Source of the DNA: Flavobacteriales bacterium
GTDB lineage: Bacteria > Bacteroidota > Bacteroidia > Flavobacteriales > CAJXXR01
NCBI GenBank assembly: GCA_025210805.1
Contig: JAOAQX010000018.1
Span: 62,001-126,000, forward strand
Length of the DNA: 64,000 nucleotides
Direction of reading: 5' to 3'
The notes under the pieces were generated by a model. It ran no database searches. It saw only the letters and a program-made list of their open reading frames with translations, and had not been told where the DNA came from. The position numbers and the translations under genes are program-made. This document shows positions 8,231 through 27,779 of this stretch, piece by piece. The number at the start of each line of letters is the position of its first letter. Positions within the stretch are counted from its first letter, which is position 1.

Positions 8231-8251
8231 TACAGTTAAAATTCTCACGCT

Positions 8252-9190: not shown

Positions 9191-9230
9191 AACCTATAGA
9201 AACGATTTTCTAAATTCTTCATTTTGAATA

Positions 9231-9268
9231 AAAAAACGCCTTTTCGAGAAATTCGAAAAGGCGTTTTT
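9231..9268. terminator. Bidirectional rho-independent terminator
   Basis: The stem AACGCCTTTTCGA / TCGAAAAGGCGTT has a 5-nt loop, A-run before and T-run after. It lies between two convergent genes, so it serves both strands. Confidence 0.9.
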
Positions 9269-9289
9269 TTGTAAACTCTATCTAGATTC

Positions 9290-11870: not shown

Positions 11871-12250
11871 ATGTTTATTAAACTCTCTGCCTGTGCTTTA
11901 ATGGGAATAGTAGCCACCAAAATCACTATTGAAGTAAATATGGATATCGGGCTCAAATATTATTTGGTAGGTCTGCCAGATTCTGCCGTAAAAGAAAGCG
12001 AACACCGTGTTGAAGCAGCTATTAAAAATATTGGATATCGTAGGCCGGGAAAAAAGATTGTAATTAATATGGCCCCTGCCGATATTAGAAAAGAAGGTTC
12101 AGCTTATGATGCTACTATTGCTCTAGGTATTTTGATGTCTTCAGGACAAGTAAACTTTTCAGCAATCAATGAATTTATTGTTATGGGTGAATTATCGCTC
12201 AATGGAGATCTTCAACCTATTAAAGGTGCGCTACCTATAGCCTTAAAAGC
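11871..12250 (+). pseudogene. comM: comM/yifB, 5' fragment (interrupted)
   Basis: These are the first ~126 codons of the Mg-chelatase-like AAA+ ATPase ComM/YifB: 'YYLVGLPDSAVKESEHRVEA', 'INMAPADIRKEGSAYDATIA', 'VMGELSLNGDLQPIKGALPI'. At 12251 the sequence passes into the left end of a Tn7-like transposon. The frame then reads six transposon-encoded residues (VNYKRK) to a TGA at 12270-12272. ComM is a hexameric helicase that promotes branch migration in natural transformation. This fragment lacks the whole ATPase core. The 3' part is at 27096-27779. Confidence 0.9.
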
Positions 12251-12314
12251 TGTCAATTACAAAAGAAAATGAGAAAACACAAAAGTAAATGAGATTATTA
12301 CAAAAGAATGTAAG
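12251..12314 (+). repeat. Transposon left end with three packed TnsB-type sites
   Basis: After the terminal TGT, three direct repeats near ACAAAAGNAAATGAG occur at 12259-12273, 12279-12293 and 12300-12314. They are spaced 20-21 bp apart, as for the overlapping TnsB binding sites of one Tn7 end. The third copy is degenerate (ACAAAAGAATGTAAG). Confidence 0.75.
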
Positions 12315-12333
12315 AAATGGCAGGCAGAATAAC

Positions 12334-13152
12334 TTACACACTTAGCGATATACTGCCTTCTTCAATCCAAATTACATCTATTTCTCTTGATAAAGGTTTT
12401 AAATTTATATTTGCTTTATAATTTATTGAATACTGATCATTTTCTTGATCTGTATAGACTACCTTACATTTTAATATAGGAATATTTTCAACAATTGAGA
12501 GCTCCGAATTTTCAGCGATTCTTTGTATAATGACTAAAAAACCGAAATACGATTCACAAATAGGTATTAAAATCTCATCTTCTTTAAATATATTACCTAT
12601 AACATGTTCTTCCATTCCTTCATAACACCTATACAACTCAAAATCATGTATTTTTAAAACTATTTTATTATTTTCTTCAATAAATTCATATTTAATATTT
12701 GTCACATTTTCTAAACCATCAATGTACTTGACTAATAATTCGTGATTAAAATAATACTCTACATTCACATTCTTAGCTATCCCATTACCAATGTTTATTA
12801 ATCGAAAATATTGACTATCTCTAGTAGTTGTTTCATTGAAAGTCCACATAGGAAAACTTCTACTTATTATTCTATCTCCATCAAAAGAAAGTAAACCTTT
12901 AAACTTTCTATCAAATACAATAGTTGGTAAATACGAATATTTTATTTGTTTATCAAATAAAGCATTCTGCTCTTCAGCTTGTTTAAGTTTATCTGCTGAT
13001 ATTTCCTTTTGTCCTTTATTTGTTTTATATGTTAAATACGCTATTATAGTTGTTGCTATAGCAGTCACAACAGTAAAAACATCAGTCAAACTAAAGCCTA
13101 CAGAATCTATTAAGATACTAACCTTAACAATAAAATTTTCAAATACATTCAT
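12334..13152 (-). CDS. Membrane-anchored protein of unknown function
   Basis: This 272-residue protein has one TM helix near residues 22-42 (DVFTVVTAIATTIIAYLTYK) and a short charged coiled stretch (QKEISADKLKQAEEQNAL). The remainder is a soluble beta-rich domain containing 'FRLINIGNGIAKNVNVEYYF', a strand-turn motif seen in many small-anchor proteins. I do not recognise the family. It is the cargo gene nearest the left end and its start overlaps the stop of the broken reverse-transcriptase frame by 14 bp. It may have been the partner of that RT, but this is inference from position only. Confidence 0.6.
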   Translation of the reverse strand: MNVFENFIVKVSILIDSVGFSLTDVFTVVTAIATTIIAYLTYKTNKGQKEISADKLKQAEEQNALFDKQIKYSYLPTIVFDRKFKGLLSFDGDRIISRSFPMWTFNETTTRDSQYFRLINIGNGIAKNVNVEYYFNHELLVKYIDGLENVTNIKYEFIEENNKIVLKIHDFELYRCYEGMEEHVIGNIFKEDEILIPICESYFGFLVIIQRIAENSELSIVENIPILKCKVVYTDQENDQYSINYKANINLKPLSREIDVIWIEEGSISLSV

Positions 13153-13552
13153 TATTCTTTTTGTTCTTTGTGATCACTTTTTTTTTCAAAAGATTATGAT
13201 AAAATCGATCAGAGACCTCAGAATCATGAATTTGATAAATTGAAATCTTTCGTATTCCTCCAGATGGTTTTGGAATATTTTTCACCATTGGTTTGGATGG
13301 CATATATGTTCCATTCAATTTTTTTTTAGAAACTGATTTAGCAATTTGTTTTCTTCGTTTATGAACATAAAATGGGTTATACAATTTATTTTCTTTCCAT
13401 TCTAATGGTATACCTATTTTTTTGGGTTTAAGGTTTAAATATATCTAACTCAATCTTTCATGAGAAATATGAATATAATTATGATATAAATTATATCTAT
13501 TCATTAATTCCCTTGCTTGAATTTCAATATCTTCTAGTAATATTTCCTCCAT
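13139..13552 (-). pseudogene. Reverse transcriptase, truncated and with an in-frame stop
   Basis: Reading from the ATG at 13550-13552, 35 codons lead to a TAG at 13445-13447. The same frame then continues, without another start until later, to a stop at 13139. The second part reads '...YMPSKPMVKN IPKPSGGIRKISIYQ', then 'IHDSEVSDRFYHNLLKKK'. That is the N-terminal RT0/RT1 region of a bacterial reverse transcriptase (K-P-S-G-G-x-R-x-I-x-I). The palm domain with its catalytic Asp-Asp motif is absent. It is therefore a double-lesion remnant of an RT gene, possibly of a defence-associated RT (DRT) or retron type; the class cannot be decided. Confidence 0.55.
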
Positions 13553-13569
13553 AATATATAATAAAACAA

Positions 13570-13599
13570 ATATGTCCTGTAAAAAAATACAAGACATAT
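13570..13599 (-). other. 12-bp hairpin just upstream of the RT remnant
   Basis: On the minus strand ATATGTCTTGTA pairs with TACAGGACATAT (one G-U) around a T-rich loop, ending 18 bp before the RT start codon. Either it is part of a structured RNA with the 13601-13697 element or it is a weak terminator; the following TTTGTTTTATT is a poor U-tract. Confidence 0.45.
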
Positions 13600-13600
13600 A

Positions 13601-13697
13601 CACGGGTTACATAATTAAAAATAAGTTCTAATTTAATACCATATGTTTAGAAATAATGATACACCATTCTCTAAAAAAGAGCTGTAATGAAACCCGT
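13601..13697 (-). ncRNA. Candidate structured RNA upstream of the RT remnant
   Basis: ACGGGTT at 13602-13608 and AACCCGT at 13691-13697 are complementary and enclose about 80 nt. Inside are smaller inverted repeats, CTCT/AGAG and TTCTAA/TTAGAA. On the minus strand this region precedes the RT gene directly. Retrons and several DRT systems place a folded template RNA there, with outer a1/a2-like pairing. The resemblance is in layout only, and random A+T-rich sequence makes short hairpins easily. Confidence 0.3.
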
Positions 13698-13837
13698 TAA
13701 TTCCATAAGAATACCCACAATATAAAACAAAAAATGATAATAAAATAATATTTCATTTTCATAAGCTTATAGCGTAAACTATTACATTTTAAAAATTAAC
13801 TTTTATTAATTTACTCTAATAAATTTATAAAAAAAAT

Positions 13838-13879
13838 GACCCATCTGGGTACGCTATATTCAGGAAGCTTGATGGGTTC
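13838..13879 (-). terminator. Terminator-like hairpin after the small ORF
   Basis: On the minus strand ACCCATC pairs with GATGGGT, followed by CATTTTTTTT. It would end transcription coming from the XRE-ImmA pair and the 53-codon ORF, separating them from the RT region. Confidence 0.55.
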
Positions 13880-13966
13880 TATTAATACAAAACTAGTATA
13901 TTTTTGTGAAAAAAAATCAACTATCAGTATTCTTTCCAGGAATTGGGACTAAATATGGTTCATTCG

Positions 13967-14128
13967 TTAAATTCCAATGTAAAAGTAAATTCCCACAGTA
14001 CAATTGAGCCATCCTTCTTCTTTATATGGAGCTTTTAATTCATCATACTTTAATTTATACTTTTGATTACATTTTAAACAATAAAATGTACCATTATCTA
14101 ATTTCTTACAGTTTTTATAGTGGTGCAT
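13967..14128 (-). CDS. Small ORF, 53 residues, Cys-containing
   Basis: An ATG at 14126-14128 opens 53 codons beginning MHHYKNCKKLDNGTFYC-LKC, with Cys at positions 7, 17 and 20 like half a zinc ribbon. It lies 30 bp after the ImmA stop in the same direction and before a terminator-like hairpin, so it could be the third gene of that transcript. No family is recognised. Coding potential is plausible but unproven. Confidence 0.4.
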   Translation of the reverse strand: MHHYKNCKKLDNGTFYCLKCNQKYKLKYDELKAPYKEEGWLNCTVGIYFYIGI

Positions 14129-14158
14129 GAAAATTTTCTTCGTTTATTCACTAAATAA

Positions 14159-14674
14159 TTAAAACAGACCATAACCTAGGTTAGCTAGGCGAAATGACAT
14201 TGCTTGGATACTAACATTAAACTTTTTTGCTAAATATTCTACTGCATCAGAATTAACATTCTTCTCAATTAAGTTTATTTCATATTCAATAAAAGATTTA
14301 GGCATCAATAATGCAGCTGCGAATGCATTTGCTTCTCTTTCTTTTTTTAATTCACCTGTAGATGAATCTTGATTTCTGTATAATCTGTTTTCACCTTTAT
14401 CAACAAAAATAGGGAATCTACTATGCAGGAAAAAATGCCCCAATTCATGGGATATTGTAAACCTCTGCCTCTTTTCATCATGAGATTTATTATACCTAAT
14501 ATAAACATTATCCTCCTTAAGTATTAATACTCCTGATATTGAATCTTCTAATACTTCAGGCTGAACATCAATACCATAATGTTTTGCAATTTTATAAACG
14601 TCAATAAAATCACATTTTTCGATATTCAATTCCGACAAAATTTTTGTGGCTTTTTCTTCTATAAATTTGTTCAT
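14159..14674 (-). CDS. ImmA/IrrE family metallopeptidase
   Basis: This 171-residue cytosolic zinc peptidase carries HExxH in 'FTISHELGHFFLHSRFPI' and the later 'EREANAFAAALLMP', the third-ligand Glu helix of the ImmA/IrrE (COG2856) family. Family members cleave a cognate XRE repressor to induce mobile-element or toxin genes. Its start overlaps the stop of the XRE gene (ATGA), the classic repressor-antirepressor arrangement. Confidence 0.9.
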   Translation of the reverse strand: MNKFIEEKATKILSELNIEKCDFIDVYKIAKHYGIDVQPEVLEDSISGVLILKEDNVYIRYNKSHDEKRQRFTISHELGHFFLHSRFPIFVDKGENRLYRNQDSSTGELKKEREANAFAAALLMPKSFIEYEINLIEKNVNSDAVEYLAKKFNVSIQAMSFRLANLGYGLF

Positions 14675-15018
14675 GATGAAATTATTTTATCAATTACACT
14701 TCCTAGACTATCTAATTCCAAAGAATTAAAGCTATCAGGCTCCAAATATTTCAAATAATTATGTGATGCTTTTTTCTCTTGTAATTTAATATCTTCTAAT
14801 GAAGGTAACAGTGATGAAATCTCTATCTCAAGATAATTTGCGATCATATATAAAGTTGACAATGAAACATGATGCCTACCACTTTCTATGTTAGATAAAG
14901 ATGAGCGACTAATTACTAGTAGATTAGATAAAGTTTCTTGACTTAACCCTTTTTCTCTTCTTAGGTTCTTAATATTTCTCCCTATATAAAGGTATATACC
15001 TTCCTTAAATTTATCCAT
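14671..15018 (-). CDS. XRE family transcriptional repressor
   Basis: This 115-residue protein has an N-terminal helix-turn-helix, 'IKNLRREKGLSQETLSNLLV' with 'SRSSLSNIESGRHHVSLSTL' as the recognition part. The acidic C-terminal tail is the likely contact and cleavage region for the downstream ImmA peptidase. It faces the 297-residue gene across 291 bp holding inverted repeats around both promoters, so it probably represses that gene and itself. Confidence 0.88.
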   Translation of the reverse strand: MDKFKEGIYLYIGRNIKNLRREKGLSQETLSNLLVISRSSLSNIESGRHHVSLSTLYMIANYLEIEISSLLPSLEDIKLQEKKASHNYLKYLEPDSFNSLELDSLGSVIDKIISS

Positions 15019-15056
15019 ACCGATCCCTTTAAAGTTTGCTAAAATAGTAAATATGT

Positions 15057-15070
15057 TTAAATGATAAACA
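15057..15070. promoter_or_regulatory. Candidate XRE operator in the XRE promoter
   Basis: GTTT-N6-AAAC within ATATGTTTAAATGATAAACA resembles the half-sites of the repeat at 15125-15145. It lies about 40-50 bp upstream of the XRE start codon. Confidence 0.35.
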
Positions 15071-15106
15071 AAACAATACTAATTACAACTACAATATACA
15101 CACTTT

Positions 15107-15138
15107 TTTGTTAAAACCAAAATAAATGTTTATATTTG
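15107..15138 (+). promoter_or_regulatory. Bacteroidota promoter for the 297-residue gene
   Basis: TTTG at 15107-15110, a 20-bp spacer and TATATTTG at 15131-15138 match the -33/-7 consensus exactly. Transcription would start near 15145 and leave a leader of about 165 nt containing the 29-nt palindrome. Confidence 0.7.
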
Positions 15139-15145
15139 AAACATT
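15125..15145. promoter_or_regulatory. Candidate operator overlapping the -7 element
   Basis: AATGTTT-N7-AAACATT is a perfect inverted repeat that covers the TATATTTG box, so a bound dimer would block RNA polymerase. The XRE protein encoded 107 bp away is the obvious candidate. Confidence 0.5.
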
Positions 15146-15153
15146 GAAAGAGG

Positions 15154-15182
15154 GATGTATGTTTGTAATACAAACATACATC
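15154..15182. promoter_or_regulatory. Perfect 29-nt palindrome in the leader
   Basis: GATGTATGTTTGTA and TACAAACATACATC are exact reverse complements around a single A. It begins about 9 nt after the predicted transcription start of the 297-residue gene. It may be a second operator; as RNA it could fold only with a larger loop. Confidence 0.6.
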
Positions 15183-15310
15183 TAGTGTTTAACTTAAAAT
15201 GATGCGTATGATTAGATAATTATTATTTTTTAAGAAACTGTGAAAGTAGCATGCAGTTAAACCCTATTAAATATTTGCTACACTTTAATTAATACTTTAT
15301 AAAAAATAAT

Positions 15311-16204
15311 ATGCATAAAGTAAACTTTAATGAATACTTCGGTATTCAAGATCTGGATACAGATCATATCAATATTCCTCTTGATGAGGATTTAAAGGCT
15401 TTTATTTGCCCTTATCAAATTTTTAATAGCTCACATCCAACAGCTTCTCAAGTCAAGGCACGTCATGATGTATTCTTTAAATATGTGATTACAGATTTAA
15501 TCAATCCTAAATCAGAAAAAAAAGCTATTACATTTTTAGCAAATCTATCAGAACCAAATGAATATCATTTAGGATACTCAAAATCTAACAAAGGTAAAGG
15601 TATTGCTAAAGAAAAAGCCAGTAATATATACACTTCATTAAGTGATCATATATTTGTAAAAAATAATATTACGATTACCCATGAAGCGAGACATATATTG
15701 TTAAATGTTGAAGGTATTGGTCAAGACAATATGTCTGATATTATTTCAGATATTGCTAAAGATATTTTTGCTGAATTTACATTAAACCAGTGTAAAAAAT
15801 ATGGAATTACAACTGAACCTTATAAGGTTAAATATTTTTGTCAAGAGAACTTTATTTGGAAAGTTAAAGAAATGCATCTTCCATATTATAAAGGTAAACC
15901 TATAATATTATTACCTAAGTCAATTTTGAGTAACTCTAGAAGTTATCCTGAAAGATTCAACTATCATTGCTGTGTCAATAATATCGTTCCAAAAATACAA
16001 AAAAGAGAACTTCATATAGACAATCACAATGATTATATAAAACAGTATAAGACTCAAGAAAAGGTTTTACATAACAAAGTTTTTAAGGACTTTAAAAAAC
16101 CAAAAGGAAGTTTGTACTTATTCATTCAGGAATACCCAAACTCATTGTTAGAATTTGATGAATATGTTAAATACAATTTACCTTGTTACTCAGAAATATC
16201 CTAA
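15311..16204 (+). CDS. Unknown 297-residue cargo protein, XRE-controlled
   Basis: This is a soluble protein without TM segments or signal peptide. Visible features are 'MHKVNFNEYFGI', 'LKAFICPYQIFNSSHP', 'NEYHLGYSKSNKGKGIAKEK' and 'GIGQDNMSDIISDIAKDIFA'. I recall the last pattern (GIGxDxxSDxxxxI) from uncharacterised proteins in defence and mobile islands, but I cannot name the family. It has an exact promoter with operator-like repeats, diverges from XRE-ImmA and ends at a strong terminator. That is an inducible one-gene unit, which suits a toxin or defence effector. No catalytic motif is evident. Confidence 0.75.
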   Translation: MHKVNFNEYFGIQDLDTDHINIPLDEDLKAFICPYQIFNSSHPTASQVKARHDVFFKYVITDLINPKSEKKAITFLANLSEPNEYHLGYSKSNKGKGIAKEKASNIYTSLSDHIFVKNNITITHEARHILLNVEGIGQDNMSDIISDIAKDIFAEFTLNQCKKYGITTEPYKVKYFCQENFIWKVKEMHLPYYKGKPIILLPKSILSNSRSYPERFNYHCCVNNIVPKIQKRELHIDNHNDYIKQYKTQEKVLHNKVFKDFKKPKGSLYLFIQEYPNSLLEFDEYVKYNLPCYSEIS

Positions 16205-16248
16205 CAAAAAAGAGACTATTCGATAAAAAAAGGGTAGTCTCTTTTTTT
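16205..16248. terminator. Bidirectional rho-independent terminator
   Basis: The stem AGAGACTA (16211-16218) / TAGTCTCT (16235-16242) is flanked by A- and T-runs. It lies between the 297-residue gene and the convergent 72-residue gene. Confidence 0.88.
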
Positions 16249-16279
16249 ATAACGACTTTTTCAATAACCAGTTATCTAT

Positions 16280-16498
16280 TTAATGGTCTTGAAAATATAC
16301 TCCTATTTTCTCTCCAGTAGTTAAATTCGTAACCATACAATCTCCAAATGGATTATGTTCTCTCCAATACAATTTATCACCAACAGATAAATTATCATCA
16401 GAAATCATTTCAAAAATAGAATCTCCTGAATCAGTTGAAACGTAAATCATTCCTGTTTCCTTTTCAATTTTAGTAATTTCTCCTTCCATAAATAACAT
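16280..16498 (-). CDS. Small OB-like protein cotranscribed with the resolvase
   Basis: This 72-residue protein (MLFMEGEITKIEKETGMIYV...) has alternating beta strands and 'SVGDKLYWREHNPFGDCMV', reminiscent of a small OB or KOW-like barrel. It starts 2 bp after the resolvase stop, so the two are almost surely expressed together. An internal Met at codon 4 is an alternative start. The function is unknown; an accessory role in recombination is only a guess. Confidence 0.6.
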   Translation of the reverse strand: MLFMEGEITKIEKETGMIYVSTDSGDSIFEMISDDNLSVGDKLYWREHNPFGDCMVTNLTTGEKIGVYFQDH

Positions 16499-16500
16499 TA

Positions 16501-17067
16501 TTAATTTGATTGTTTGTCGACTCTATAAAATGTAGCTTTACTGATATTTGCTTTATTACAAGCTTCAATTATTGGCACGTTCATATTTTTATAAAGATGA
16601 TTTGCATAATTATATTTCTCTAAGGTCTCTTTTTTAAAACCTCTTGGACGACCTAAATGTTTTTTTCTTTTACGAGCATTGACTAATCCAGCTTTTGTCC
16701 GTTCACTGATTAAATTCCTTTCAAATTCGGCCACCGAAGCAAAAATCTGAAGTAAGAACTTACCATTAGCTGAAGTAGTGTCGAATTGAGGTTCTGTTAA
16801 GCTTTTAAAGTTAACCTCCATCTTTCCCAATTTCTCAATTAAATCAACCATATTCTTAAGTGATCTAAAGATTCTATCATTTTTATAGATAATAATTAAA
16901 TCACCCTTTCTAACATAGGAAAGCATTTGATTCAATCCTTCTCGATCTTCTCTTACACCGCTTGCAACATCCGAAAATATTTTTTTACAACCAGCTTCTT
17001 TCAGTAATGTAATTTGAGTTTCTAAATTTTGTCCTGGGCGACTTACCCTTGCATAACCAACCTTCAT
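16501..17067 (-). CDS. Serine resolvase (TniR-like)
   Basis: This 188-residue small serine recombinase has its catalytic Ser in 'MKVGYARVSRPGQNLETQ' (residue 9). It also has 'DREGLNQMLSYVRKGDLIII', 'KNDRIFRS', the helix-E region 'FASVAEFERNLISERTKAGL' and a C-terminal helix-turn-helix ('VPIIEACNKANISKATFYRV'). Length and domain order fit resolvases that separate cointegrates rather than large integrases. A palindromic res site lies just upstream. Tn5053/Tn402 elements use such an enzyme (TniR) to finish replicative transposition. Confidence 0.9.
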   Translation of the reverse strand: MKVGYARVSRPGQNLETQITLLKEAGCKKIFSDVASGVREDREGLNQMLSYVRKGDLIIIYKNDRIFRSLKNMVDLIEKLGKMEVNFKSLTEPQFDTTSANGKFLLQIFASVAEFERNLISERTKAGLVNARKRKKHLGRPRGFKKETLEKYNYANHLYKNMNVPIIEACNKANISKATFYRVDKQSN

Positions 17068-17083
17068 ACAATTTCTTATATAT

Positions 17084-17196
17084 GTCTCATAAAACTATTA
17101 TTTACGAAACTAATAAAAAAGACAATAAAAAAGACAGGTTTGATTAGAAAATTGAATAATTCCACTCTGTCTCATAAAACGAACGTTTAATAAGAC
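17084..17196. other. Candidate res site of the transposon resolvase
   Basis: At 17169-17196, GTCTCATAAAAC-GAAC-GTTTAATAAGAC is a 28-bp near-perfect palindrome (10 of 12 positions), the size of a resolvase crossover subsite. GTCTCATAAAAC recurs exactly at 17084-17095. Inverted ends AAAAAAGAC occur at about 17115-17123 and 17127-17135. This gives a multi-subsite region between the divergent resolvase and ietA genes, as in known res sites, and resolvase binding would also autoregulate. Confidence 0.7.
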
Positions 17197-17315
17197 TTAA
17201 TTCTTAACATTTGCAAATAAACCAAATAAGTGTAAAATATTACGATTTTTAGTAGAATAATCACGATTAACGATGTAAATATAACAAAATAACGCACGTT
17301 AATACGATTTTTGTA

Positions 17316-17323
17316 TATATTTG
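17316..17323 (+). promoter_or_regulatory. -7 element for ietAS
   Basis: TATATTTG matches TAnnTTTG and lies 27 bp before the ietA start codon. No good -33 TTTG is seen at the right spacing, so activity may be modest. Confidence 0.45.
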
Positions 17324-17349
17324 CATTGTGAAGTATTAAAAAAGCAACT

Positions 17350-18441
17350 ATGTATACAGAGTTAATCAAAATAATAGAAGGAAGTCTTAAAAATGATAAC
17401 AAGAAAGTTTTAAGTTATTCAAGACATTTAGCAAACAAGCTAAAAGAGAATGGTGAAGTTAAATTGGCAGAGAAAATCCTGGCAACCATTAATGGACATC
17501 ATAACCTACCAGTATTTAAAGATGAGTTATTTGAAGCTCCTGTTGATAACGACACTAGGTTAAATATAGCTGATGTAATTTTACCTGACAATATTGATTT
17601 AGACGTAAACATTTCTCCTAGTTTGAAAGAGCCAATCAATAATTTTCTTTCTTTAATAAGATCAAAAGATCAAATTCAAAGTAAAGGTTTTGAGATGAAT
17701 TTATCTCTATTATTATATGGTCCTCCTGGATGTGGAAAAACAACTTTAGCAATGCATATTGCAAAAGAATTAAATATCCCCATTGTAATCGCAAGATTTG
17801 ATTCTTTAATATCTTCTCTTTTAGGAAATACAGCAAAAAACATTAGGCGATTGTTTGATTATGCAAAGAACAAACCTTGTATACTTTTTCTTGATGAATT
17901 TGATGCCATAGCTAAGGCTAGAGATGATAATAATGAAACAGGTGAATTAAAAAGAGTTATTAATAGTTTACTTCAAAATATCGATGATTTTTTACATAGC
18001 GGGATATTAATTGCAGCAACAAATCATGAACAATTACTAGATCGGGCGATTTGGAGAAGATTTGAGAAAACGATACATGTTAGCAAACCTGATGTTAATG
18101 AAATTAAATATTTGATAAAAGAATATTTAAATAAAATTGATGATTTTAATGAAAATATTGATGATAAAAAAATTGAAACATTATCAAATTGTTTCAAGAC
18201 ATTATCCCATTCTGAAATCATTAAAATTATTAACAGTACTTATTATAATTCCATAATTGATAAAACAAGTTTTAATTATGAAGAAATATTTTGTGAATTT
18301 TTTAAATATCAAAATAATAACCAATATAATACCGAAGAGTTTATATGTTTTTTAAGTGAGTGTAATATTACTCAAAAGCATATATCTGAATATCTAAATA
18401 TATCAATTAGACAGGTCCGTAACGCAATTAATAACGAATAA
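17350..18441 (+). CDS. ietA: IetA, AAA+ ATPase of the IetAS defence pair
   Basis: This 363-residue cytosolic AAA+ ATPase has Walker A 'GPPGCGKT' at 124-131, Walker B 'ILFLDEFD' at 178-185 and 'IAATNHEQLLDRAIWRRFEK' as sensor-1 plus arginine fingers. The C-terminal 'ITQKHISEYLNISIRQVRNA' looks like a small helix-turn-helix. It is followed 12 bp later by a subtilase. An AAA ATPase plus subtilisin-like protease is the IetAS architecture, first described for plasmid stability and later as an anti-phage system. The ATPase presumably senses or delivers substrate to the protease. Confidence 0.85.
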   Translation: MYTELIKIIEGSLKNDNKKVLSYSRHLANKLKENGEVKLAEKILATINGHHNLPVFKDELFEAPVDNDTRLNIADVILPDNIDLDVNISPSLKEPINNFLSLIRSKDQIQSKGFEMNLSLLLYGPPGCGKTTLAMHIAKELNIPIVIARFDSLISSLLGNTAKNIRRLFDYAKNKPCILFLDEFDAIAKARDDNNETGELKRVINSLLQNIDDFLHSGILIAATNHEQLLDRAIWRRFEKTIHVSKPDVNEIKYLIKEYLNKIDDFNENIDDKKIETLSNCFKTLSHSEIIKIINSTYYNSIIDKTSFNYEEIFCEFFKYQNNNQYNTEEFICFLSECNITQKHISEYLNISIRQVRNAINNE

Positions 18442-18453
18442 ATCTATTAAAAA

Positions 18454-20808
18454 ATGAACAAAAAAAAATTACCAATCAAGCTTTTCCAAAAACGTACGCA
18501 AATTGATGAGCGAAGAGTTGAGGGAGGAGGAGATAAAACCCCTCCAAAATGGCAGTTATCTGGAGATCAACTTACACAAAGAGTTGAGCACTTATTATCA
18601 TCTATACAGAATATTGATAATGCATTTGAAAATAGGCCAAAAGAGAGAGCCTTCATTCCAGTTACATTAAAAATTGATATTAATGATGATGCCATTGCGA
18701 AGTCTCATAGAGCTGATATTCAAAAATTGTTTTATGGAGAAAAAACTAAAAACAATATAATAGGTTTTATAGGTTCAAATAGTGCAATTGTAAAAGTAAA
18801 TAATCTCCAAGATTGTAAAGCTATTCGTAAGAACATTAATCAATATTCTTTAAATCCAAAAGGAATATCTGCTGTTCAATCAATTCAAATTTTTGAACCA
18901 TTTATTATTGATTTAAATCAAGCTGAAACAATTAAAGTATCATTAATTGATTTCTTAAATTATGACATTAATGAAGCAGTCAAGCAATTATTTGAGAACT
19001 TTTGCATTAAACAAGGGATAAAAATTAAGAAAGTAAACTACTCTTCTGGTTTAATAATTTTTAAACTTAGTGATATTTCTAAAGTTCAATTAGATTCAAT
19101 AAAGGAATTTGAAGCTATAGAATCCATAACATTAATGCCTAGGTATTCACTTAGTATGGATTCTTTAAACAGTCAAAATGAAATTGATATTAAAATTCCT
19201 GATGAAAATAAAGTCTATCCAATTGTTGGTGTTTTAGATTCTGGGGTTGCAAGAAATAAATTTCTAAAACCATGGCTATTAAACAAAAACTACTCTTCAT
19301 ACCCTGAGGATTTTATCAACCAATTTCATGGCTCTTGTGTATCAAGTTTAATTGTTTACGGAGATGAATTAGAAAATAATAAGTGGACAAATGCTTCGGG
19401 GTGTATGATTTTTGATGCGACAGTTTTTCCAGATACTTCCAGAGAAGATATTCATGAAGATGAGTTGGTCGAAAATATTAGGAATGCAATAAAAGATAAT
19501 AGTCATATAAAAATATGGAATTTATCTTTGGGAACAATATCTGAATCTGATTTAAATGAATTTTCTGACTTCGGTAAAGCTTTAGATGAAATTCAATTAA
19601 ATTACGATGTAGTTATATGTAAATCAGTTGGGAATTGCACTAATTTCAAAGATGGCTATCCCAAAAGTAGAGTGGCGAAGTCAGGTGATTCTATTAGATC
19701 TCTTGTGGTAGGATCAATTACTCATAGTAAAAATAATCAAGATTTAGCAGAATTAAATCACCCCTCACCATTTTCCAGAATTGGTCCTGGACCAGCAAAC
19801 ACAATAAAACCTGATTTAGTATCATTTGGAGGAAACGCAGGTACGGCAAATGGTCGAATAATTCCTAATGGAGTTAATGTTATAACTCCAGATGGTTCGG
19901 TTTCTCAAATGGTAGGTACCAGTTTTTCAACGCCAAGAGTTACAGCTTTATTAGCTGAGTTAGATTTTAACATCAATGAAGAGTTCAATCCTACATTACT
20001 TAAAGGCCTTGCAATTCACTCTGCTAATTACCCTACTAATTTATCTCTTAATTCGAATGAAAGAATTAATCAGATGGGATTTGGTTTACCTAAGTCTGCT
20101 GATCAAATTATATATAATGATCCTCATGAAATAACATTAATTTTACAGGAGAATATTAACAAAGGTGAATTTATTGAAATATTAGATTTTCCTTTTCCTG
20201 ATAGTTTGAAAGATGAAGATGGTAATTATTATGGAGAGATACGAATAACAGCTGTAACACAACCAATTTTAAGAGAAAAACAGGGCGCTGAATATTGCCA
20301 GTCTAATCTGAAAATACAATTTGGAACATATGAAAACATAAAAAATCGTGATGTTACCAAATCGACTATTTTAAACCCAATTGGACCTCAAGATCCTCAG
20401 AATGTGATTTTAGAATCTAATTATGGAGCTAAATTCAAAAAAGACTACACTAGTGAATATGCAAAGGAAAGACTTCTTCTAAACTATGGAAAGAAATATC
20501 AACCGATAAAAAAATACTCAGTAAATTTAGATGAAATGAAGCCTGCAAGAAAAAGAGATTCTTTAAACGGAAATCTAAAATGGTTCTTAAAGGTTAAAGG
20601 AGAATATCGAGATTTTGCTGAAAACCTCGCAGTTCAAGATGGAGAGATTTTAAATCAAGATTTCACTTTAATCATTACAATAAAAGATACTAAAAGAGAA
20701 AAACAGGTTTATAATGAGGTTTCAAGATTATTAGCAAGTAGAAACTTCATTCATTCAAATATAAAACTCAGAGAGAATATTAGAATAGACATTAATGACA
20801 AACAGTAA
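18454..20808 (+). CDS. ietS: IetS, subtilisin-like protease of the IetAS pair
   Basis: This 784-residue S8-family serine protease has the catalytic triad Asp262 ('VGVLDSGV'), His292 ('NQFHGSCVSSL') and Ser490 ('MVGTSFSTPRV'), with oxyanion Asn394 ('KSVGNCTN'). The N-terminal ~250 residues form a non-catalytic region, and a beta-rich C-terminal region of ~250 residues follows the protease. There is no signal peptide, so it acts in the cytoplasm, as expected for IetS. The triad is intact, so the enzyme is probably active. It ends at a strong terminator. Confidence 0.87.
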   Translation: MNKKKLPIKLFQKRTQIDERRVEGGGDKTPPKWQLSGDQLTQRVEHLLSSIQNIDNAFENRPKERAFIPVTLKIDINDDAIAKSHRADIQKLFYGEKTKNNIIGFIGSNSAIVKVNNLQDCKAIRKNINQYSLNPKGISAVQSIQIFEPFIIDLNQAETIKVSLIDFLNYDINEAVKQLFENFCIKQGIKIKKVNYSSGLIIFKLSDISKVQLDSIKEFEAIESITLMPRYSLSMDSLNSQNEIDIKIPDENKVYPIVGVLDSGVARNKFLKPWLLNKNYSSYPEDFINQFHGSCVSSLIVYGDELENNKWTNASGCMIFDATVFPDTSREDIHEDELVENIRNAIKDNSHIKIWNLSLGTISESDLNEFSDFGKALDEIQLNYDVVICKSVGNCTNFKDGYPKSRVAKSGDSIRSLVVGSITHSKNNQDLAELNHPSPFSRIGPGPANTIKPDLVSFGGNAGTANGRIIPNGVNVITPDGSVSQMVGTSFSTPRVTALLAELDFNINEEFNPTLLKGLAIHSANYPTNLSLNSNERINQMGFGLPKSADQIIYNDPHEITLILQENINKGEFIEILDFPFPDSLKDEDGNYYGEIRITAVTQPILREKQGAEYCQSNLKIQFGTYENIKNRDVTKSTILNPIGPQDPQNVILESNYGAKFKKDYTSEYAKERLLLNYGKKYQPIKKYSVNLDEMKPARKRDSLNGNLKWFLKVKGEYRDFAENLAVQDGEILNQDFTLIITIKDTKREKQVYNEVSRLLASRNFIHSNIKLRENIRIDINDKQ

Positions 20809-20815
20809 CTTCCAG

Positions 20816-20841
20816 AAAGAGGGTTTTCAAAAGCCCTCTTT
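20816..20841 (+). terminator. Rho-independent terminator of ietAS
   Basis: The stem AAAGAGGG / CCCTCTTT, with extra pairing of TTTT and AAAA near the loop, lies 8 bp after the ietS stop and is followed by TATT. It separates ietAS from the TnsE-like gene. Confidence 0.8.
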
Positions 20842-20898
20842 ATTGCTCTATCCTAAAAAAATCATTAAATAGATTATTCATTTTAAAATTCTCACTTT

Positions 20899-22659
20899 AT
20901 GAAAGAAAAACCAATTATCGAGCTACAGAAAGCTTCTGTTAATCAATATGATTATTGGTTATTGATTAATTTTGAAAAAGTTAGATATGATAATCAAGAT
21001 GAAAGATCTCGTTGTCTAGAATTTATTAGTACTAAAGCTCCCGATTTTTTTAATACTAATAATTGGAATCTAAAAAATCGAATATCAGTATATGTGCCTG
21101 AAGAAAATTTAGTTACTCTCCGTTTAGGAAATATATTTAATTCAAAAGGTGAAAATGTCAAAACAAATCTATTAGAAGAAAGTATACATATATCAAAACA
21201 TACTCTAAAGATAGAGAGATGGGGAAATAAATATGTTGCAAATCATGATGATTCTTTCTTTTATGGTACAATTCTGTCAGATACCTGTAAAAATAGATAT
21301 TATCATTTATCTAGTACCAAAGGTAATTTATTCTACATCTCAACGGCATTAATAGCTCAATTCTTTTATTATAAATCCACTAAGTTAATAACGTATTTAT
21401 TACATTATGTTAATGAAGATGATAATGGTATATACAGGCAAGGTGATTCAGATTTGTATCTATTTAATTCAAAAATTATCAATACAAATGACGTTATTCA
21501 TTTGGTTAAGTTCAACTACATAAATAATGAAAATGAAAAATCAGGAAGAGATATTCTTAATCACTCATTAATAAAATTTTATGAGGTATTAACTAATTAC
21601 AGAAAAAATTATAGATTTAATAACAGTGTATTTGAAAGTGAAATTATCTATAAGTTTCCTTTTGATAGACCACTTGATATTGAAGTTAAAGCCCAAAAAA
21701 TTTCAGAAAATAAATATATAGTATATTCTATCGATTCTGTTAAATCTAAATACCCATTGTTCAAAAAAAACAAAATGATGTTTTTGAATATTAATGATCC
21801 TAGAGTTGTAGATCAATATTTAAATGATGAAGTGAAAGGTTATATTCTGACCCTTCCTAGCTATAATGATTCTATTAAATCAGAAGAGCAATATGATTAT
21901 GATTATAACGATATAAACTCAAAAATAGAATCAATACCTAATAAGATTGACATTCCTTTTTTTTCTTCAGTTCCTGAGTATGATATTCTTGATAAAGAGA
22001 AAAGCTTAAATAAACATGAGTTAAAAAAAATAAATGATTTTCTGGTAGAATCTTTAGCAATAAGTTCTAATAATAGAAGTAATAGCTCAGCCATTCAAGG
22101 GGTGAATAGTATTTCATATGACCCTAAAAACACTGATGAGAATTTTTACAGAGAAATGTTTACTCAACTAAAAAGTCTAAATTATATTATAGGAGTTAAA
22201 TATTTAACTTTTGAATTCGATTTAGACATGAGTAATAATATTATAGATACACCTTATGAAATCTTAATTCATGAGGGAAAGTATATAATCCTAAAAATAC
22301 GATTAAAAGTAAAAGAAAAGTCTTATGATTTCTTTTTGATCCACAAAACCTCAGAAAAAAGGATGGGAGTGGTGTATTTAAGTCATTCTATATACTCAAA
22401 TAACAAGCAAACTTTTCTTCAAGTCAAAAACTTCTTAGAAAGTATGAACGGAATCATTAATTTTCCTAAATATTATTACTCCAATAAATCATCTAAAAAT
22501 AAAGAGTATAAATTTGATGATATCTTAAAAAAGTATGGTCTAATAGTTTTAAAATCAATAAATATCAAAAAGAATATTCCTCTCGATTTATTAACCAAGA
22601 ATTTGGAAAAGTATTTACTTACTTTTATTCGTAAAAGGAGCATAAAAAAGGGAATCTAA
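20899..22659 (+). CDS. TnsE-like transposon targeting protein (candidate)
   Basis: This 586-residue soluble protein is not recognised by any strong motif, but several stretches fit my memory of TnsE. 'DSFFYGTILSDTCKNRYYHL' is followed by hydrophobic helices. 'IIYKFPFDRPLDIEVKAQKI' is followed by 'ISENKYIVYSID'. A C-terminal domain has 'YEILIHEGKYIILKIRLKVK' and 'KSYDFFLIHKT'. It has about TnsE size (Tn7 TnsE is ~540). TnsE directs Tn7 to replicating lagging-strand DNA and conjugative plasmids. Unlike in Tn7, this gene is convergent with tniQ and overlaps its 3' end by 45 bp. The alternative is an unrelated cargo protein. Confidence 0.5.
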   Translation: MKEKPIIELQKASVNQYDYWLLINFEKVRYDNQDERSRCLEFISTKAPDFFNTNNWNLKNRISVYVPEENLVTLRLGNIFNSKGENVKTNLLEESIHISKHTLKIERWGNKYVANHDDSFFYGTILSDTCKNRYYHLSSTKGNLFYISTALIAQFFYYKSTKLITYLLHYVNEDDNGIYRQGDSDLYLFNSKIINTNDVIHLVKFNYINNENEKSGRDILNHSLIKFYEVLTNYRKNYRFNNSVFESEIIYKFPFDRPLDIEVKAQKISENKYIVYSIDSVKSKYPLFKKNKMMFLNINDPRVVDQYLNDEVKGYILTLPSYNDSIKSEEQYDYDYNDINSKIESIPNKIDIPFFSSVPEYDILDKEKSLNKHELKKINDFLVESLAISSNNRSNSSAIQGVNSISYDPKNTDENFYREMFTQLKSLNYIIGVKYLTFEFDLDMSNNIIDTPYEILIHEGKYIILKIRLKVKEKSYDFFLIHKTSEKRMGVVYLSHSIYSNNKQTFLQVKNFLESMNGIINFPKYYYSNKSSKNKEYKFDDILKKYGLIVLKSINIKKNIPLDLLTKNLEKYLLTFIRKRSIKKGI

Positions 22660-23619
22660 ATATGAAGGGATTATCCAATCATTATTTATTACTCGGGCTT
22701 TAATAATAAAATACTCGTTAAATATATATTTTAAAGTATGATATTCATTATGAATTAAATTATGTACGAATGGAAATATTTGACTTCTTTGTTCAACTGA
22801 CCAGAATTTCATTTCTTCTTTGTTGAATAAAAATATTACATTCAAGACTTCGTTAACACCATTTCTTAACCTATTATCCTTTGTATCAGATGTTAACCTT
22901 CGTGACAGAAGGAACAAAACATTAATATAAAGAATAGAAGATTCATTTTTATATTTACCGATAGTTAATATTTCATTTATTTCTTTTTGATAGTTTAAAT
23001 TAAAATCGGATACGTATTTTGGTTCAAAATCTTCTATCTTACAACCACAATGATAGCAATTGTACAATTGTTTGTAATCATTGTCTAAAACACTTTGATT
23101 ACCTCCAAATTCAGCCCTGTAAAATGCTATTGGAGATCCACATAATTGACAGCGATCAATTAATAAACATTTGTGTCTTATACATACAATAGTTGTTAGT
23201 AATCTCCAAGATGTTTTATAATATGGGTTAGACTCTCTTAGACATAAAATACAACATTGTAACCCAAACCGATTTCGTTGTCTATGATTGACACCTAATG
23301 CCAATACATTTTTTGTTGTTGAAGAAATTTTATAAAATGATTTCCCAATATACTTTGATAAGAATAAGTTCTCAACTTTTTCTTTAGAAAGTAGCGTGTG
23401 ATTATAAATTAAATCTTTAAGATAACTAGGTGGCATTAAGTCAACATCACGATTCCATATATTAGGGTTACTATCCAAGATATAGTTCTTAATGAATGTC
23501 CTACTTTTAACTCCATGATTATAAGATAATCTACAAATCCAGGAAGAGAATAATTCATCTTCATATGGAGGAATATAGAATGGGAATATATTTTTCTTAA
23601 GATTCCTAATATAGACCAT
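22615..23619 (-). CDS. tniQ: TniQ/TnsD-family target-selection protein (short form)
   Basis: About 334 residues from the ATG at 23619 (MVYIRNLKKNIFPFYIPPYE). The TniQ core shows 'EDELFSSWICRLSYNHG' and a zinc-finger block 'LQCCILCLRES', 'TIVCIRHKCLLIDRCQLCGS', and later 'CYHCGC'. This is much shorter than Tn7 TnsD (~508), so the sequence-specific C-terminal part is small. TniQ proteins bridge the target site to TnsC. It overlaps the tnsC stop by 14 bp. Confidence 0.85.
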   Translation of the reverse strand: MVYIRNLKKNIFPFYIPPYEDELFSSWICRLSYNHGVKSRTFIKNYILDSNPNIWNRDVDLMPPSYLKDLIYNHTLLSKEKVENLFLSKYIGKSFYKISSTTKNVLALGVNHRQRNRFGLQCCILCLRESNPYYKTSWRLLTTIVCIRHKCLLIDRCQLCGSPIAFYRAEFGGNQSVLDNDYKQLYNCYHCGCKIEDFEPKYVSDFNLNYQKEINEILTIGKYKNESSILYINVLFLLSRRLTSDTKDNRLRNGVNEVLNVIFLFNKEEMKFWSVEQRSQIFPFVHNLIHNEYHTLKYIFNEYFIIKARVINNDWIIPSYLDSLFYAPFTNKSK

Positions 23620-24505
23620 TGTTGAAAAATGCTTTTTTTCTATTTGATGGTGTTGTATAATCAATAGAATTTAAAACTTTGATTGTGATTTTTTCAGAGC
23701 CATCTTCAATAGCAAAAATCGAAGCCAATTCTAGTATTTTTGATACTTCTCCAATTAAACCATCACTCATTGATAGTATTTTACTAGAAATGTGATTTTG
23801 TACTAATCCAGATTCTTTTTTTAAAGGTAAAATCCTTTCAAAGCTTAATAAGAGTCTTTTAAATTCTAAATCGTTTTTCCATCTTCTTAAAATGTTTGGC
23901 TCAAATCTATTTGACAATTGATGGTCTGTTTGTATCGCATTGAATGCTAATTTAGTTCCTGCACATACTAAGGGTATCCTCAACTCATTTGATAAATACT
24001 TCAAAACATTTAAGAAAAGTCTTTGCTTTTTAGGAGTACCAGCTAAAACATGATGTATTTCATCAATAACCAAAACTTTTACCTCTAACTTTTGTAATAG
24101 TTTTATAACTCTATTTTGTCTACTGTCTAACCTTTCAGATGTCTTAGAAGGCGCAAATAGTTTTTCTAAAATAGCATTGTAGAACCTACGCTCATCTGGT
24201 TCGGGTGGTGCTTGAATTAATAAAACAGGATTTATTAAATTATTTGTTTTTTCACAGATAAATGCTTCGTTTTTCATATTAAAACGATTTAGAAGAGCAG
24301 TCTTACCATTATTAGAATCACCTACAATAAGTATATTAGGCATTCTGTGGTTATTTGGATAGTTCATGCAATCCTCCATTTTATCTAAAATATTATTAGC
24401 TTCAGTATAACCAATCCATTTGAACTTTTTAATGGCTTCAATGCGTTCGGAATCACTAGAAGATAATATTAACGTTTTGGTTCTTTCAGTTATATGCTTC
24501 ATCAT
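23606..24505 (-). CDS. tnsC: TnsC/TniB AAA+ transposition ATPase
   Basis: This 299-residue ATPase has Walker A 'GDSNNGKT' at 62-69 and Walker B 'VLVIDE' at 144-149, followed by 'IHHVLAGTPKKQRLFLNVLK', characteristic of TniB/TnsC. 'RIPLVCAGTKLAFNAIQTD' is sensor-1. It forms ATP-dependent filaments on target DNA and passes the target signal from TniQ to TnsB. It is short like TniB rather than Tn7 TnsC (~555). It overlaps the tnsB stop by 20 bp. Confidence 0.92.
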   Translation of the reverse strand: MMKHITERTKTLILSSSDSERIEAIKKFKWIGYTEANNILDKMEDCMNYPNNHRMPNILIVGDSNNGKTALLNRFNMKNEAFICEKTNNLINPVLLIQAPPEPDERRFYNAILEKLFAPSKTSERLDSRQNRVIKLLQKLEVKVLVIDEIHHVLAGTPKKQRLFLNVLKYLSNELRIPLVCAGTKLAFNAIQTDHQLSNRFEPNILRRWKNDLEFKRLLLSFERILPLKKESGLVQNHISSKILSMSDGLIGEVSKILELASIFAIEDGSEKITIKVLNSIDYTTPSNRKKAFFNNGLY

Positions 24506-26327
24506 CTATATCTTCAAAAGGTGTAATTGTAATGTCAGGTTCAGTATCTTCAGAAGATTCTATATCATCAACTGGATCTTTACTATCTATATTTTCAATA
24601 GTTTTTTCTATTGTTTTGTTATTATGTTTAGTTTCTCTAATAGCTTTTTCTTCAATACTATTCAATTCTCTATACGCTTCAAAAATTGCATTCTCATTGA
24701 CTTCGATTTGGTTCCCCTTTAATTTTGAAACAATGTTTCTGTATTCCCAAATTGAGATTGAAGGTAATGATGTATCTCTATATGGAATTTCATAGTATGT
24801 TTTTGAATTTGGATCAAAAAAATAGATTAAACTAATATCTCTTGGGTCTCTTTTAAATTTATGTTTTACTTTTTGACCATTTTGATTTGTATCATGAATA
24901 AAATGTCTTAAAACGTCTGCATAATAATAAATATGATCAATTAAAACACCATATTCTTGAACAGATCTTTGTACTACTGGAAGAAAATCAATCTTTACTT
25001 TTCTTTCGTTATTTAGACGGAATGGAAGCCCTGTTCCTTTTTGATCTTCACTACCTAATAAACCTTTTCTATATTTGTTAATAGGAGTAGTTTTTATTGT
25101 CGAGTGGATCTTATTGTGATATACCTTTGTAATATAAGTAACTAACCATTTTTCAAATTCCTTAAGTGTGAAAGATGCATTTTGTTTAGAATTATACCTC
25201 CCTCTTTCCGCACTAGAAGAAAATGTTGTCCCTGGTAAATTATGTATCTCTTTAGCAAAAGTTCCTAGTAACCTTTCAACATGTCCCCCATAATTAGGTG
25301 ATCCAATTGGTCTAAACTCTAACTCTATACCATAATCAACACAGGCGTCTTTGAGCATTATTCCTTTAAATTCTTTTGCATTATCAACATGTATTTTTTT
25401 CATGATACCCCAACATGGCCAATCAGATTCTATACCTTTATCTTCTAACCATTTTTCTTTCGGTAAAATTGCATTTGCAATACATATTCCAGTGCCTAAT
25501 GCTCCTGGTGTTTCAAATGATAAATGAATTCCTAAAACAACCCTACTATAGACATCAATAGCCAGCGTTAACCAAGGTCGAGATAATGGTTTTCTTGATT
25601 CATGGTCAACTAGTATAATATCTACAGGAGTGTGATCTATTTGTACAACAGATAAAGGGTAATCTGCTCCAGGAAATGATCCTCTAATGGGTTCATATTT
25701 GAATTTTGCTTCTTGGTGACCAAACCTCTTTCTTAATGTAAGTTCATTAGATAAACTCTTTATCCTATTGCGTATAGTGTTGGGATGAGGCGACTTAATT
25801 CCAAGCTCGTTACAAGTTAACTGAATCTCTCTTATCGTTTTAGTTATTGATTTTCTAGATTTATTTAGATAAACAGAATTTATTTTGTTGAGAATAATAT
25901 CTTCTTGAGCTTCCATAAGCCTACTCTTATTCTTTCCTCCTGTACGCCTTTTATTAGCAAGAGAAGAAACCAAACCAGTGGTGTCAAAAGATTTAATCCA
26001 TCTATAAATAGTGGATTGACTAACCTTATGTTTTTGAGTAATTTCTTCGATTAAATTTGTATTGCTGCGATCTTCTATAATAGGTTTAATAATTTGATAT
26101 CTTTCTTGTGCAGTATTCCATTCTTTTTCAGTTAACGCATCTCTTTGAAAAGGAGTTTTTTTAGATTTAGTATGAGTAGATAAATCATTAATAGGAACAG
26201 TTTGTATGGTACCTGATTCTACTTCTTCAATCATAACTTTTTCTATATCAATAATTCGTGTTATGATTGCTTTTTTATTATTATACAACACTTTATACCC
26301 TGGTTCTATATAAATTCTATCTTCCAT
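24486..26327 (-). CDS. tnsB: TnsB/TniA DDE transposase
   Basis: This 613-residue RNase-H-fold transposase has the DDE residues at about Asp231 ('VVQIDHTPVD'), Asp315 ('KKIHVDNAKEF') and Glu351 ('GGHVERLLGTFAKE'). N-terminal helix-turn-helix DNA-binding domains lie near residues 60-200 ('KHKVSQSTIYRWIKSF'), and an acidic C-terminal tail ('DIESSEDTEPDITITPFED') probably contacts TnsC. It binds the end repeats and cuts and joins the 3' ends. The catalytic triad looks intact. Confidence 0.94.
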   Translation of the reverse strand: MEDRIYIEPGYKVLYNNKKAIITRIIDIEKVMIEEVESGTIQTVPINDLSTHTKSKKTPFQRDALTEKEWNTAQERYQIIKPIIEDRSNTNLIEEITQKHKVSQSTIYRWIKSFDTTGLVSSLANKRRTGGKNKSRLMEAQEDIILNKINSVYLNKSRKSITKTIREIQLTCNELGIKSPHPNTIRNRIKSLSNELTLRKRFGHQEAKFKYEPIRGSFPGADYPLSVVQIDHTPVDIILVDHESRKPLSRPWLTLAIDVYSRVVLGIHLSFETPGALGTGICIANAILPKEKWLEDKGIESDWPCWGIMKKIHVDNAKEFKGIMLKDACVDYGIELEFRPIGSPNYGGHVERLLGTFAKEIHNLPGTTFSSSAERGRYNSKQNASFTLKEFEKWLVTYITKVYHNKIHSTIKTTPINKYRKGLLGSEDQKGTGLPFRLNNERKVKIDFLPVVQRSVQEYGVLIDHIYYYADVLRHFIHDTNQNGQKVKHKFKRDPRDISLIYFFDPNSKTYYEIPYRDTSLPSISIWEYRNIVSKLKGNQIEVNENAIFEAYRELNSIEEKAIRETKHNNKTIEKTIENIDSKDPVDDIESSEDTEPDITITPFEDIDDEAYN

Positions 26328-26341
26328 ATTTATCTGTTTTA

Positions 26342-26980
26342 CTACAAATATACTTTTGTTTTCATACTTAATTTAGTACTAAAATCAAATAAGATGCTCT
26401 TATGAACGATCATTACCCAAATAGTATATAAAAGTAATATCTTGTTATCTTCATTTTTCACTGAATAATCAAGTATATTTTGAATAGTTAACGATTTATG
26501 TTCTCGTAATGTCTTATTAACAATACTCATCCTATTATAATCAAATCCATATCCAGGTCTTTTATATTTTAATAGGAAATTTGAATTATGCAACTCATTA
26601 GAATGCTTAAAATCTTCATATTTATATTCAATAAATTTGATACCTAAATCAATACAATACTTTTTAAATACTTGAGTAATACTAGCGTCAATTGTTGAAA
26701 TCTCCTTAATATTAATTATTTCTAATGACCTATCATAATTCATTAAAATAAAAGGAGGACAAAATTTATGCTTTCTCCCGTATAAATCAATAATAAAATT
26801 TACACCTCTATAATTATATTCTATTACCTCGATCTTAACTTCAAAAAATGTTCTAAAATCAGTGATTAACTGATCCTCCTCTAAGTCATCATTGTCTATT
26901 CTTTGAATATCAATAATATTATCGGTCAAATTGAAATTTGACAAATCTAAATTTCTGTTGTTTCTCGTAATTATTCTCAT
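26342..26980 (-). CDS. tnsA: TnsA-like endonuclease fold, apparently catalytically degenerate
   Basis: This 212-residue protein starts inside the right end and precedes tnsB by 14 bp, the Tn7 tnsA position. The fold pattern fits the TnsA N-terminal nuclease: 'DLEEDQLITDFRTFFEVKIE', 'GRKHKFCPPFILMN', 'LEIINIKEIS', then 'YCIDLGIKFIEYKYED' and 'NSNFLLKYKRPG'. TnsA normally has E...(P)D...QxK. Here the Asp position reads Pro (CPPF) and QxK reads NIK, while Lys remains. If the alignment is right it cannot cut the 5' strands. It may still be a structural TnsB partner. Confidence 0.65.
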   Translation of the reverse strand: MRIITRNNRNLDLSNFNLTDNIIDIQRIDNDDLEEDQLITDFRTFFEVKIEVIEYNYRGVNFIIDLYGRKHKFCPPFILMNYDRSLEIINIKEISTIDASITQVFKKYCIDLGIKFIEYKYEDFKHSNELHNSNFLLKYKRPGYGFDYNRMSIVNKTLREHKSLTIQNILDYSVKNEDNKILLLYTIWVMIVHKSILFDFSTKLSMKTKVYL

Positions 26981-27095
26981 CCACTTTTAAAATTTCACCT
27001 TAGTTTTGGTTGGTTTCTACTCTGTATTCCTACCTTCTTTTGTAAATACAGTACTAAAATCAGCGTTTTATTCTCATTTAGTGTTGTAATTTACA
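26976..27095 (-). repeat. Transposon right end with spaced TnsB-type sites
   Basis: Read inward from 27095 the end is TGTAAATTACAACACTAAAT. Sites resembling the left repeats lie at 27073-27087 (ACAACACTAAATGAG), 27029-27043 (ACAAAAGAAGGTAGG) and about 26976-26988 (AAAAGTGGATGAG). The last covers the tnsA start codon, so TnsB binding there could repress the operon. Spacing is wide, unlike the packed left end. Confidence 0.7.
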
Positions 27096-27779
27096 GTTGG
27101 CGGAGGTTCTTATCCTCAACCGGGAGAAATTTCTTTAGCTCACAATGGCGTTCTTTTTTTAGATGAAATGACGGAATTTAACAAATCTGCACTTGAGGTG
27201 ATGCGTCAGCCCCTTGAAGATCGAGAAGTACATATCTCACGGGCAAAATTCTCGGTCACTTATCCTTGTAGTTTTGTACTGATAGCCGCAATCAACCCCT
27301 GCCCTTGTGGATATTATAACCATCCCACAAAAGATTGTCAATGTGCTCCCAATATTGTCCAGCGGTATTTAGGAAAAATTTCAGGTCCTGTTTTAGATCG
27401 AATAGATATGCATATAGAAGTAGTCCCAGTAGATTATGGAGAACTGGCTTCCAAACAAACTTCTGAAACCAGTCTCGAAATAAGAAAAAGAGTTGTTGAG
27501 GCAAGAAAACACCAAACTCATCGTTTTCAGAACATGGAAAAAGTGCATTGTAATGCCGAAATGAATGCCAAAATGATAGAGCAAATTTGTGAAATACCCG
27601 AAAATGGGCAAGAACTTCTCAAACAAGCCATGCAAAAATTTAATCTCTCTGCAAGAGCACATTCCAAAATCATTAAACTTTCTAGAACCATAGCGGACCT
27701 AGATGGCAAACCAAACATTGAAGTAGTTCACCTAGCCGAAGCCATACAATACCGAAGTTTGGATAAAAATTTGTGGTGA
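27096..27779 (+). pseudogene. comM: comM/yifB, 3' fragment (interrupted)
   Basis: About 227 codons of the C-terminal half: 'GGGSYPQPGEISLAHNGVLF' (Walker B LFLDE), 'KSALEVMRQPLEDREVHISR', zinc-ligand Cys in 'NPCPCGYYNHPTKDCQC', 'ISGPVLDRIDMHIEVVP' and 'SARAHSKIIKLSRTIADLDG'. It resumes where the right transposon end stops. Between it and the 5' fragment, the family normally has ~150 further residues including Walker A and 'RPFRSPHH'. These are missing, so comM cannot be restored by simple excision. Confidence 0.9.

Follow-up and report, generated by a model that had tools for sequence, protein, structure and literature searches.

A Tn7-like transposon of the Tn6022 kind, inserted in the comM gene of a Flavobacteriales bacterium (Bacteroidota), appears to encode a TnsA protein that has become a pseudo-nuclease within an otherwise intact element. 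The arrangement occurs in one genome, and on the strength of its sequence we take it to be real and unusual. The element is 14.8 kb long and spans positions 12251 to 27095 of the 64,000-nucleotide stretch of DNA that was analyzed (the window). Terminal inverted repeats starting with TGT were found in the sequence at both termini, TGTCAATTACAA at 12251 and TGTAAATTACAA on the minus strand ending at 27095, and both ends of the element look intact. The insertion separates a 5' fragment of comM (11871 to 12250, plus strand), which lacks about 159 residues before the insertion site, from a 3' fragment (27096 to 27779, plus strand). The tnsA gene (26342 to 26980, minus strand) is an open reading frame of 212 amino acids that lies exactly where tnsA is expected, as the first-pass annotation had recognized, 14 bp upstream of tnsB and at the head of an operon with the order tnsA-tnsB-tnsC(tniB)-tniQ. 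The other genes of the operon, all on the minus strand, encode a DDE transposase (tnsB, or tniA, 24486 to 26327), an AAA+ regulator (tnsC, or tniB, 23606 to 24505; PF05621, E = 6e-71) and TniQ (22615 to 23664; PF06527, E = 1e-22), and these three genes lying side by side identify the element as Tn7-like, a group recognized by TnsB and TnsC together with TnsA, TniQ or both.

By its predicted fold, the window protein is a true TnsA. Its AlphaFold2 model (pLDDT 85.7, pTM 0.78) was built from an alignment of the window protein with the proteins of related loci, which include intact homologues, and the nuclease-domain part of the model leans on these and may be carried by them. The top Foldseek matches of this model in the PDB were TnsA (1f1z, 1.2e-4), the TnsA/TnsC complex (1t0f) and a TnsAB chain (9bw1), and VIA-align superimposed it on the same three structures with Z scores of 9.4 to 9.5 over 181 to 198 residues at an rmsd of 4.8 to 6.2, whereas unrelated winged-helix structures scored 8 and below and covered the C-terminal domain only. 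The concern that the protein might have no TnsA fold at all is thus answered by the model, and the predicted two-domain fold occurs together with the expected place before tnsB. The sequence had been described as fitting the N-terminal nuclease of TnsA. The family assignment stands, but the N-terminal half hardly fits a profile of intact relatives (9.0 bits, the best of 500 shuffles reaching 6.2), and it is the conserved C-terminal domain (about residues 129 to 212; 66.9 bits) that identifies the protein. Pfam gave no match to the TnsA N-terminal nuclease half, and PF08721 scored 16.7 bits against a cut-off of 23.4 bits.

Direct searches of genome contigs, plasmids and a phylum sample with the window TnsA returned no reliable match, and viral contigs held no relatives. 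A weak TnsA match in one genome was rejected, as no related tnsB, tnsC, tniQ or TnsA lay around it. Relatives were therefore reached through TnsB, and the gene before each tnsB was taken. This yielded 64 TnsA homologues for alignment, drawn from Bacteroidota, Proteobacteria and other groups, each encoded directly upstream of a related tnsB. The motifs quoted in the first-pass annotation are indeed present, with C74-P75-P76-F77 at the "PD" position and N90-I91-K92 at the QxK position. In the numbering of E. coli TnsA, and counting the sequences that reach each column, the D114 column holds Asp in 63 of 63 homologues and P76 in the window protein, the Q130 column holds Glu in 62 of 62 and N90 in the window protein, and the K132 column holds Lys in all 62, a residue that the window protein keeps as K92. 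The losses of D114 and Q130 and the retention of K132 had been anticipated, but a third loss had been missed: at E63, all 62 homologues that reach the column have Glu, and the window protein has I39. Three of the four active-site residues are gone, including both carboxylates of the catalytic triad and the residue two before the lysine. Profile alignments tie these columns both to E. coli TnsA (1f1z), with a score of 27.9 bits for the D114-K132 segment and a weak -0.2 bits for the E63 segment, and to E34, D71 and K87 of PseTnsA, which the PseTnsA structure shows as its metal-site triad (PMC13228271). An acidic residue at a metal position, which would have spoken for a working site, was looked for in the homologue and profile alignments and none was found. 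The first-pass annotation had asked whether the proline is fixed among homologues. It is not: no TnsA in the alignment other than that of the window element has it, and in the closest sister element tnsA is absent. Four further relatives, drawn from order and class genome samples, have all TnsA motifs intact. At the three changed positions, the window codons (ATC, CCT and AAT) would need two or three substitutions apiece to encode Glu, Asp and Glu, more than one isolated sequencing error accounts for. The case that the nuclease is catalytically dead is therefore stronger than originally stated, and the protein would be expected to have lost cleavage. The pairing with an intact TnsB, singled out earlier as unusual, is borne out as well, since D231, D315 and E351 of TnsB are invariant.

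The loss of constraint extends over the whole nuclease domain and is concentrated there. Against L018, the related element with the nearest TnsA, the nuclease domain of the window protein is 18% identical where 54% is expected (z = -6.2), the range in 97 comparable pairs being 41 to 66%, whereas the C-terminal domain is 44% identical where 46% is expected (z = -0.3); TnsB and TnsC of the same two elements are 58% and 70% identical. Against relatives other than L018, the C-terminal domain shows a mild acceleration (z = -1.7 to -3.4). On a fixed TnsB/TnsC/TniQ tree, the terminal branch of the window nuclease domain reaches 10.0, apparently the limit of the optimizer, with no other taxon above 1.36, and that of the C-terminal domain is 0.95, with other taxa at up to 1.31. 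The two TnsA domains could not be told apart by GC content at the codon positions, which was dropped as a discriminator. A single dead-TnsA sequence is known, which makes dN/dS by domain impossible, and the evidence for selection on the C-terminal domain comes from distant relatives.

We consider it probable that a true TnsA has here turned into a pseudo-nuclease that survives as a structural component of a now replicative transposase. A dying element, in which transposition is no longer selected and tnsA is an early pseudogene, is an unlikely explanation of the same data. The element is present as a single copy, lacks a target duplication and sits in a rearranged comM, and the TnsA branch is very long, all as such an element might show. 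However, decay would be expected in every gene of a dead element, and that of tnsA is concentrated in the N-terminal domain; the remaining operon genes, tnsB, tnsC and tniQ, have stayed intact at near-normal evolutionary rates, with branches only about twice the median and intact DDE and AAA motifs, and both transposon ends look intact. The tnsA frame is also open. In simulations of neutral decay of the N-terminal domain, none of 4,000 sequences stayed open, a stop being met before divergence to 45% identity, and the open frame over 212 codons has therefore itself been under selection. This is as expected if the C-terminal domain is needed, because it must be translated. That the N-terminal domain was instead re-purposed, for example for DNA binding or contact with TnsB, with the high rate reflecting adaptation, strikes us as improbable. 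Its fold is confidently predicted over most of its length, and K92 and several structural residues are kept, but nothing positively points to a new function and the profile score lies barely above that of the shuffles. It is very doubtful that catalysis survives through shifted residues, with E35, D41 or D82, for instance, as a metal ligand. Migrated catalytic residues are known among PD-(D/E)XK enzymes and several acidic residues lie nearby, yet three positions have changed and the whole domain has lost constraint; E35 in particular is not a replacement, because intact relatives already conserve it beside the catalytic Glu. TnsA cleavage supplied in trans by another element can be practically dismissed, since, although Tn7-like elements can share hosts, the TnsA profile finds only the window tnsA in the 99.9% complete genome of this organism, which also holds a single TnsB of this kind. 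A PF08722 search of the same genome carries no weight on this point, since it failed in all control genomes too.

The relatives of the element show that tnsA can be lost altogether. In a maximum-likelihood tree of TnsB, TnsC and TniQ, the window element groups with an element of Marinifilum sp. N1E240 (L026; SH-aLRT 91.6, UFBoot 93), in which tnsA is absent with no detectable remnant. The interval between its right end and tnsB (7389 to 9998) contains small genes, of which two resemble a toxin-antitoxin pair on visual inspection. A comM-inserted element of Mucilaginibacter SG564 (L032) also has no tnsA, its tnsB lying some 250 bp inside the right end (9752 to 9998), and this loss is independent of that in the Marinifilum element. 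A serine recombinase is encoded by all three elements without an intact TnsA (the window element and these two) and by 6 of 16 relatives with one. We do not rely on this association, which is not significant (p = 0.087), is uncorrected for kinship and includes some incomplete loci among the 16.

In the window element, the serine recombinase is of resolvase size (16501 to 17067, minus strand; 188 amino acids; PF00239, E = 8e-40) and is a candidate cointegrate resolvase. It is close to the recombinase of the Chryseobacterium element L020, and a stretch of some 91 bp upstream of the gene is conserved between the two elements (71%, E = 8e-7), marking a candidate res-like site at 17098 to 17188 (minus strand). 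Other cargo includes an IteA ATPase (17350 to 18441) and an IteS S8 peptidase (18454 to 20808), both on the plus strand and related to NCBIfam-named anti-phage proteins at scores below the curated cut-offs; a similar pair is carried by the Tenacibaculum relative L024 (15437 to 18948). A further cargo pair at 14159 to 15018 encodes an HTH regulator and an M78 metallopeptidase. Between the peptidase gene and tniQ, and convergent with tniQ, lies a fast-evolving gene for about 600 amino acids (20899 to 22659, plus strand), in the position that tnsE has in Tn6022. Its product has no family match and a low-confidence model (pLDDT 45), and no TnsF was recognized in the element. Eight related elements have a gene of similar size at this position (L018, at 13690 to 15528, L019, L020, L021, L023, L024, L025 and L032), and we regard the window gene as a candidate target selector.

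The comM insertion site is common to the relatives, and in most of them the right end meets the same comM codons. The left end joins comM at varying points in L019 to L022, L024 to L026 and L080, with 23 to 201 ComM residues missing, and the junctions are clean in L018, L030, L032, L034, L035, L041 and L066. The Chryseobacterium elements L020 to L022 are close relatives with different endpoints, and for this reason the deletions look recent and repeated. A 5-bp target duplication is present in L018 (GGAGG) and L032 (GGTGG) and absent at the window element (AAAGC versus GTTGG), where a deletion has removed the comM flank at the left end, so that the original duplication could not survive. Intramolecular replicative transposition with an adjacent deletion could account for both the absent duplication and the roughly 159 ComM residues that are missing. 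As a replicative footprint, however, we dropped these features, which are also found in relatives with intact TnsA.

On the reading of a pseudo-nuclease retained as a structural subunit, the PD-(D/E)XK N-terminal domain would have lost the ability to cleave the transposon at its 5' ends, and the C-terminal domain would be retained, probably since TnsA has a second role in the TnsAB transposase, as a structural or activating subunit. Also in favor of this reading, transposition of PseCAST needs the TnsA N-terminus (PMC13228271) and deletion of TnsA impairs transposition of Tn6022 (PMC10293859). With no 5' cleavage, TnsB would join the 3' ends to the target, the resulting Shapiro intermediate would be replicated into a cointegrate, and its resolution might fall to the serine recombinase or to host recombination. 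If currently active, the element thus probably copies itself now rather than cutting itself out; no second copy or cointegrate of it was seen. That transposition turns replicative and yields cointegrates when TnsA does not cleave, as the first-pass annotation stated, has been established with point mutants in related systems, the D90A mutant of the Vibrio cholerae CAST giving over 95% cointegrates (PMC8188705), and would apply to the window element by extension. Loss of tnsA and gain of a resolvase mark the Tn7-like branches that are taken to be replicative (Benler et al. 2021, PMC8649781).

Among known systems, the comM-targeting Tn6022 (Faure et al. 2023, PMC10293859) shares with the window element the order tnsA-tnsB-tnsC(tniB)-tniQ, the insertion in comM and an additional gene that follows tniQ on the opposite strand, tnsE in the case of Tn6022. 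It is reported to need TnsA and to give 61% simple insertions and 39% cointegrates (PMC10293859). The window element differs in that its TnsA lacks three of the four active-site residues, and by sequence neither TnsF nor TnsE can be recognized in the product of the gene that follows tniQ. Elements of the Tn5053/Tn402 family encode TniA, TniB, TniQ and TniR, have no TnsA and target res sites. The window element resembles them in its DDE transposase, TniB, TniQ and serine recombinase, and a working TnsA is expected in neither; however, it keeps tnsA as a putative pseudo-nuclease, its recombinase lies among the cargo rather than beside tniQ, and its target is comM. The Marinifilum element is the closest relative in TnsB, TnsC and TniQ and likewise has a comM insertion and a serine recombinase, but it has other genes in place of tnsA between the right end and tnsB, and its recombinase directly follows tniQ. 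Active-site mutants of E. coli TnsA are a comparable engineered loss at the PD site, with a switch to cointegrates expected. The PD-site Asp is similarly lost in the D90A mutant of the V. cholerae CAST (PMC8188705), and the same switch would be expected of the window element. Unlike in these engineered proteins, the loss in the window protein is natural, affects several residues and is accompanied by decay of the whole nuclease domain. We found no natural TnsA that is retained but dead in the open-access literature, and we know of no natural intermediate in which TnsA is kept in a catalytically dead form.

The window element would stand midway between cut-and-paste elements like Tn6022 and TnsA-less replicative elements like Tn5053. 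We lean somewhat toward regarding its natural pseudo-nuclease as an intermediate step on the way from cut-and-paste to replicative transposition, the next step, loss of the gene, being seen in the sister element from Marinifilum. Since decay affects the nuclease half of the protein and the C-terminal half is conserved, the element sets the cutting function of TnsA apart from its structural one. It thereby makes testable why Tn7-like transposition usually needs TnsA although TnsB does the joining.
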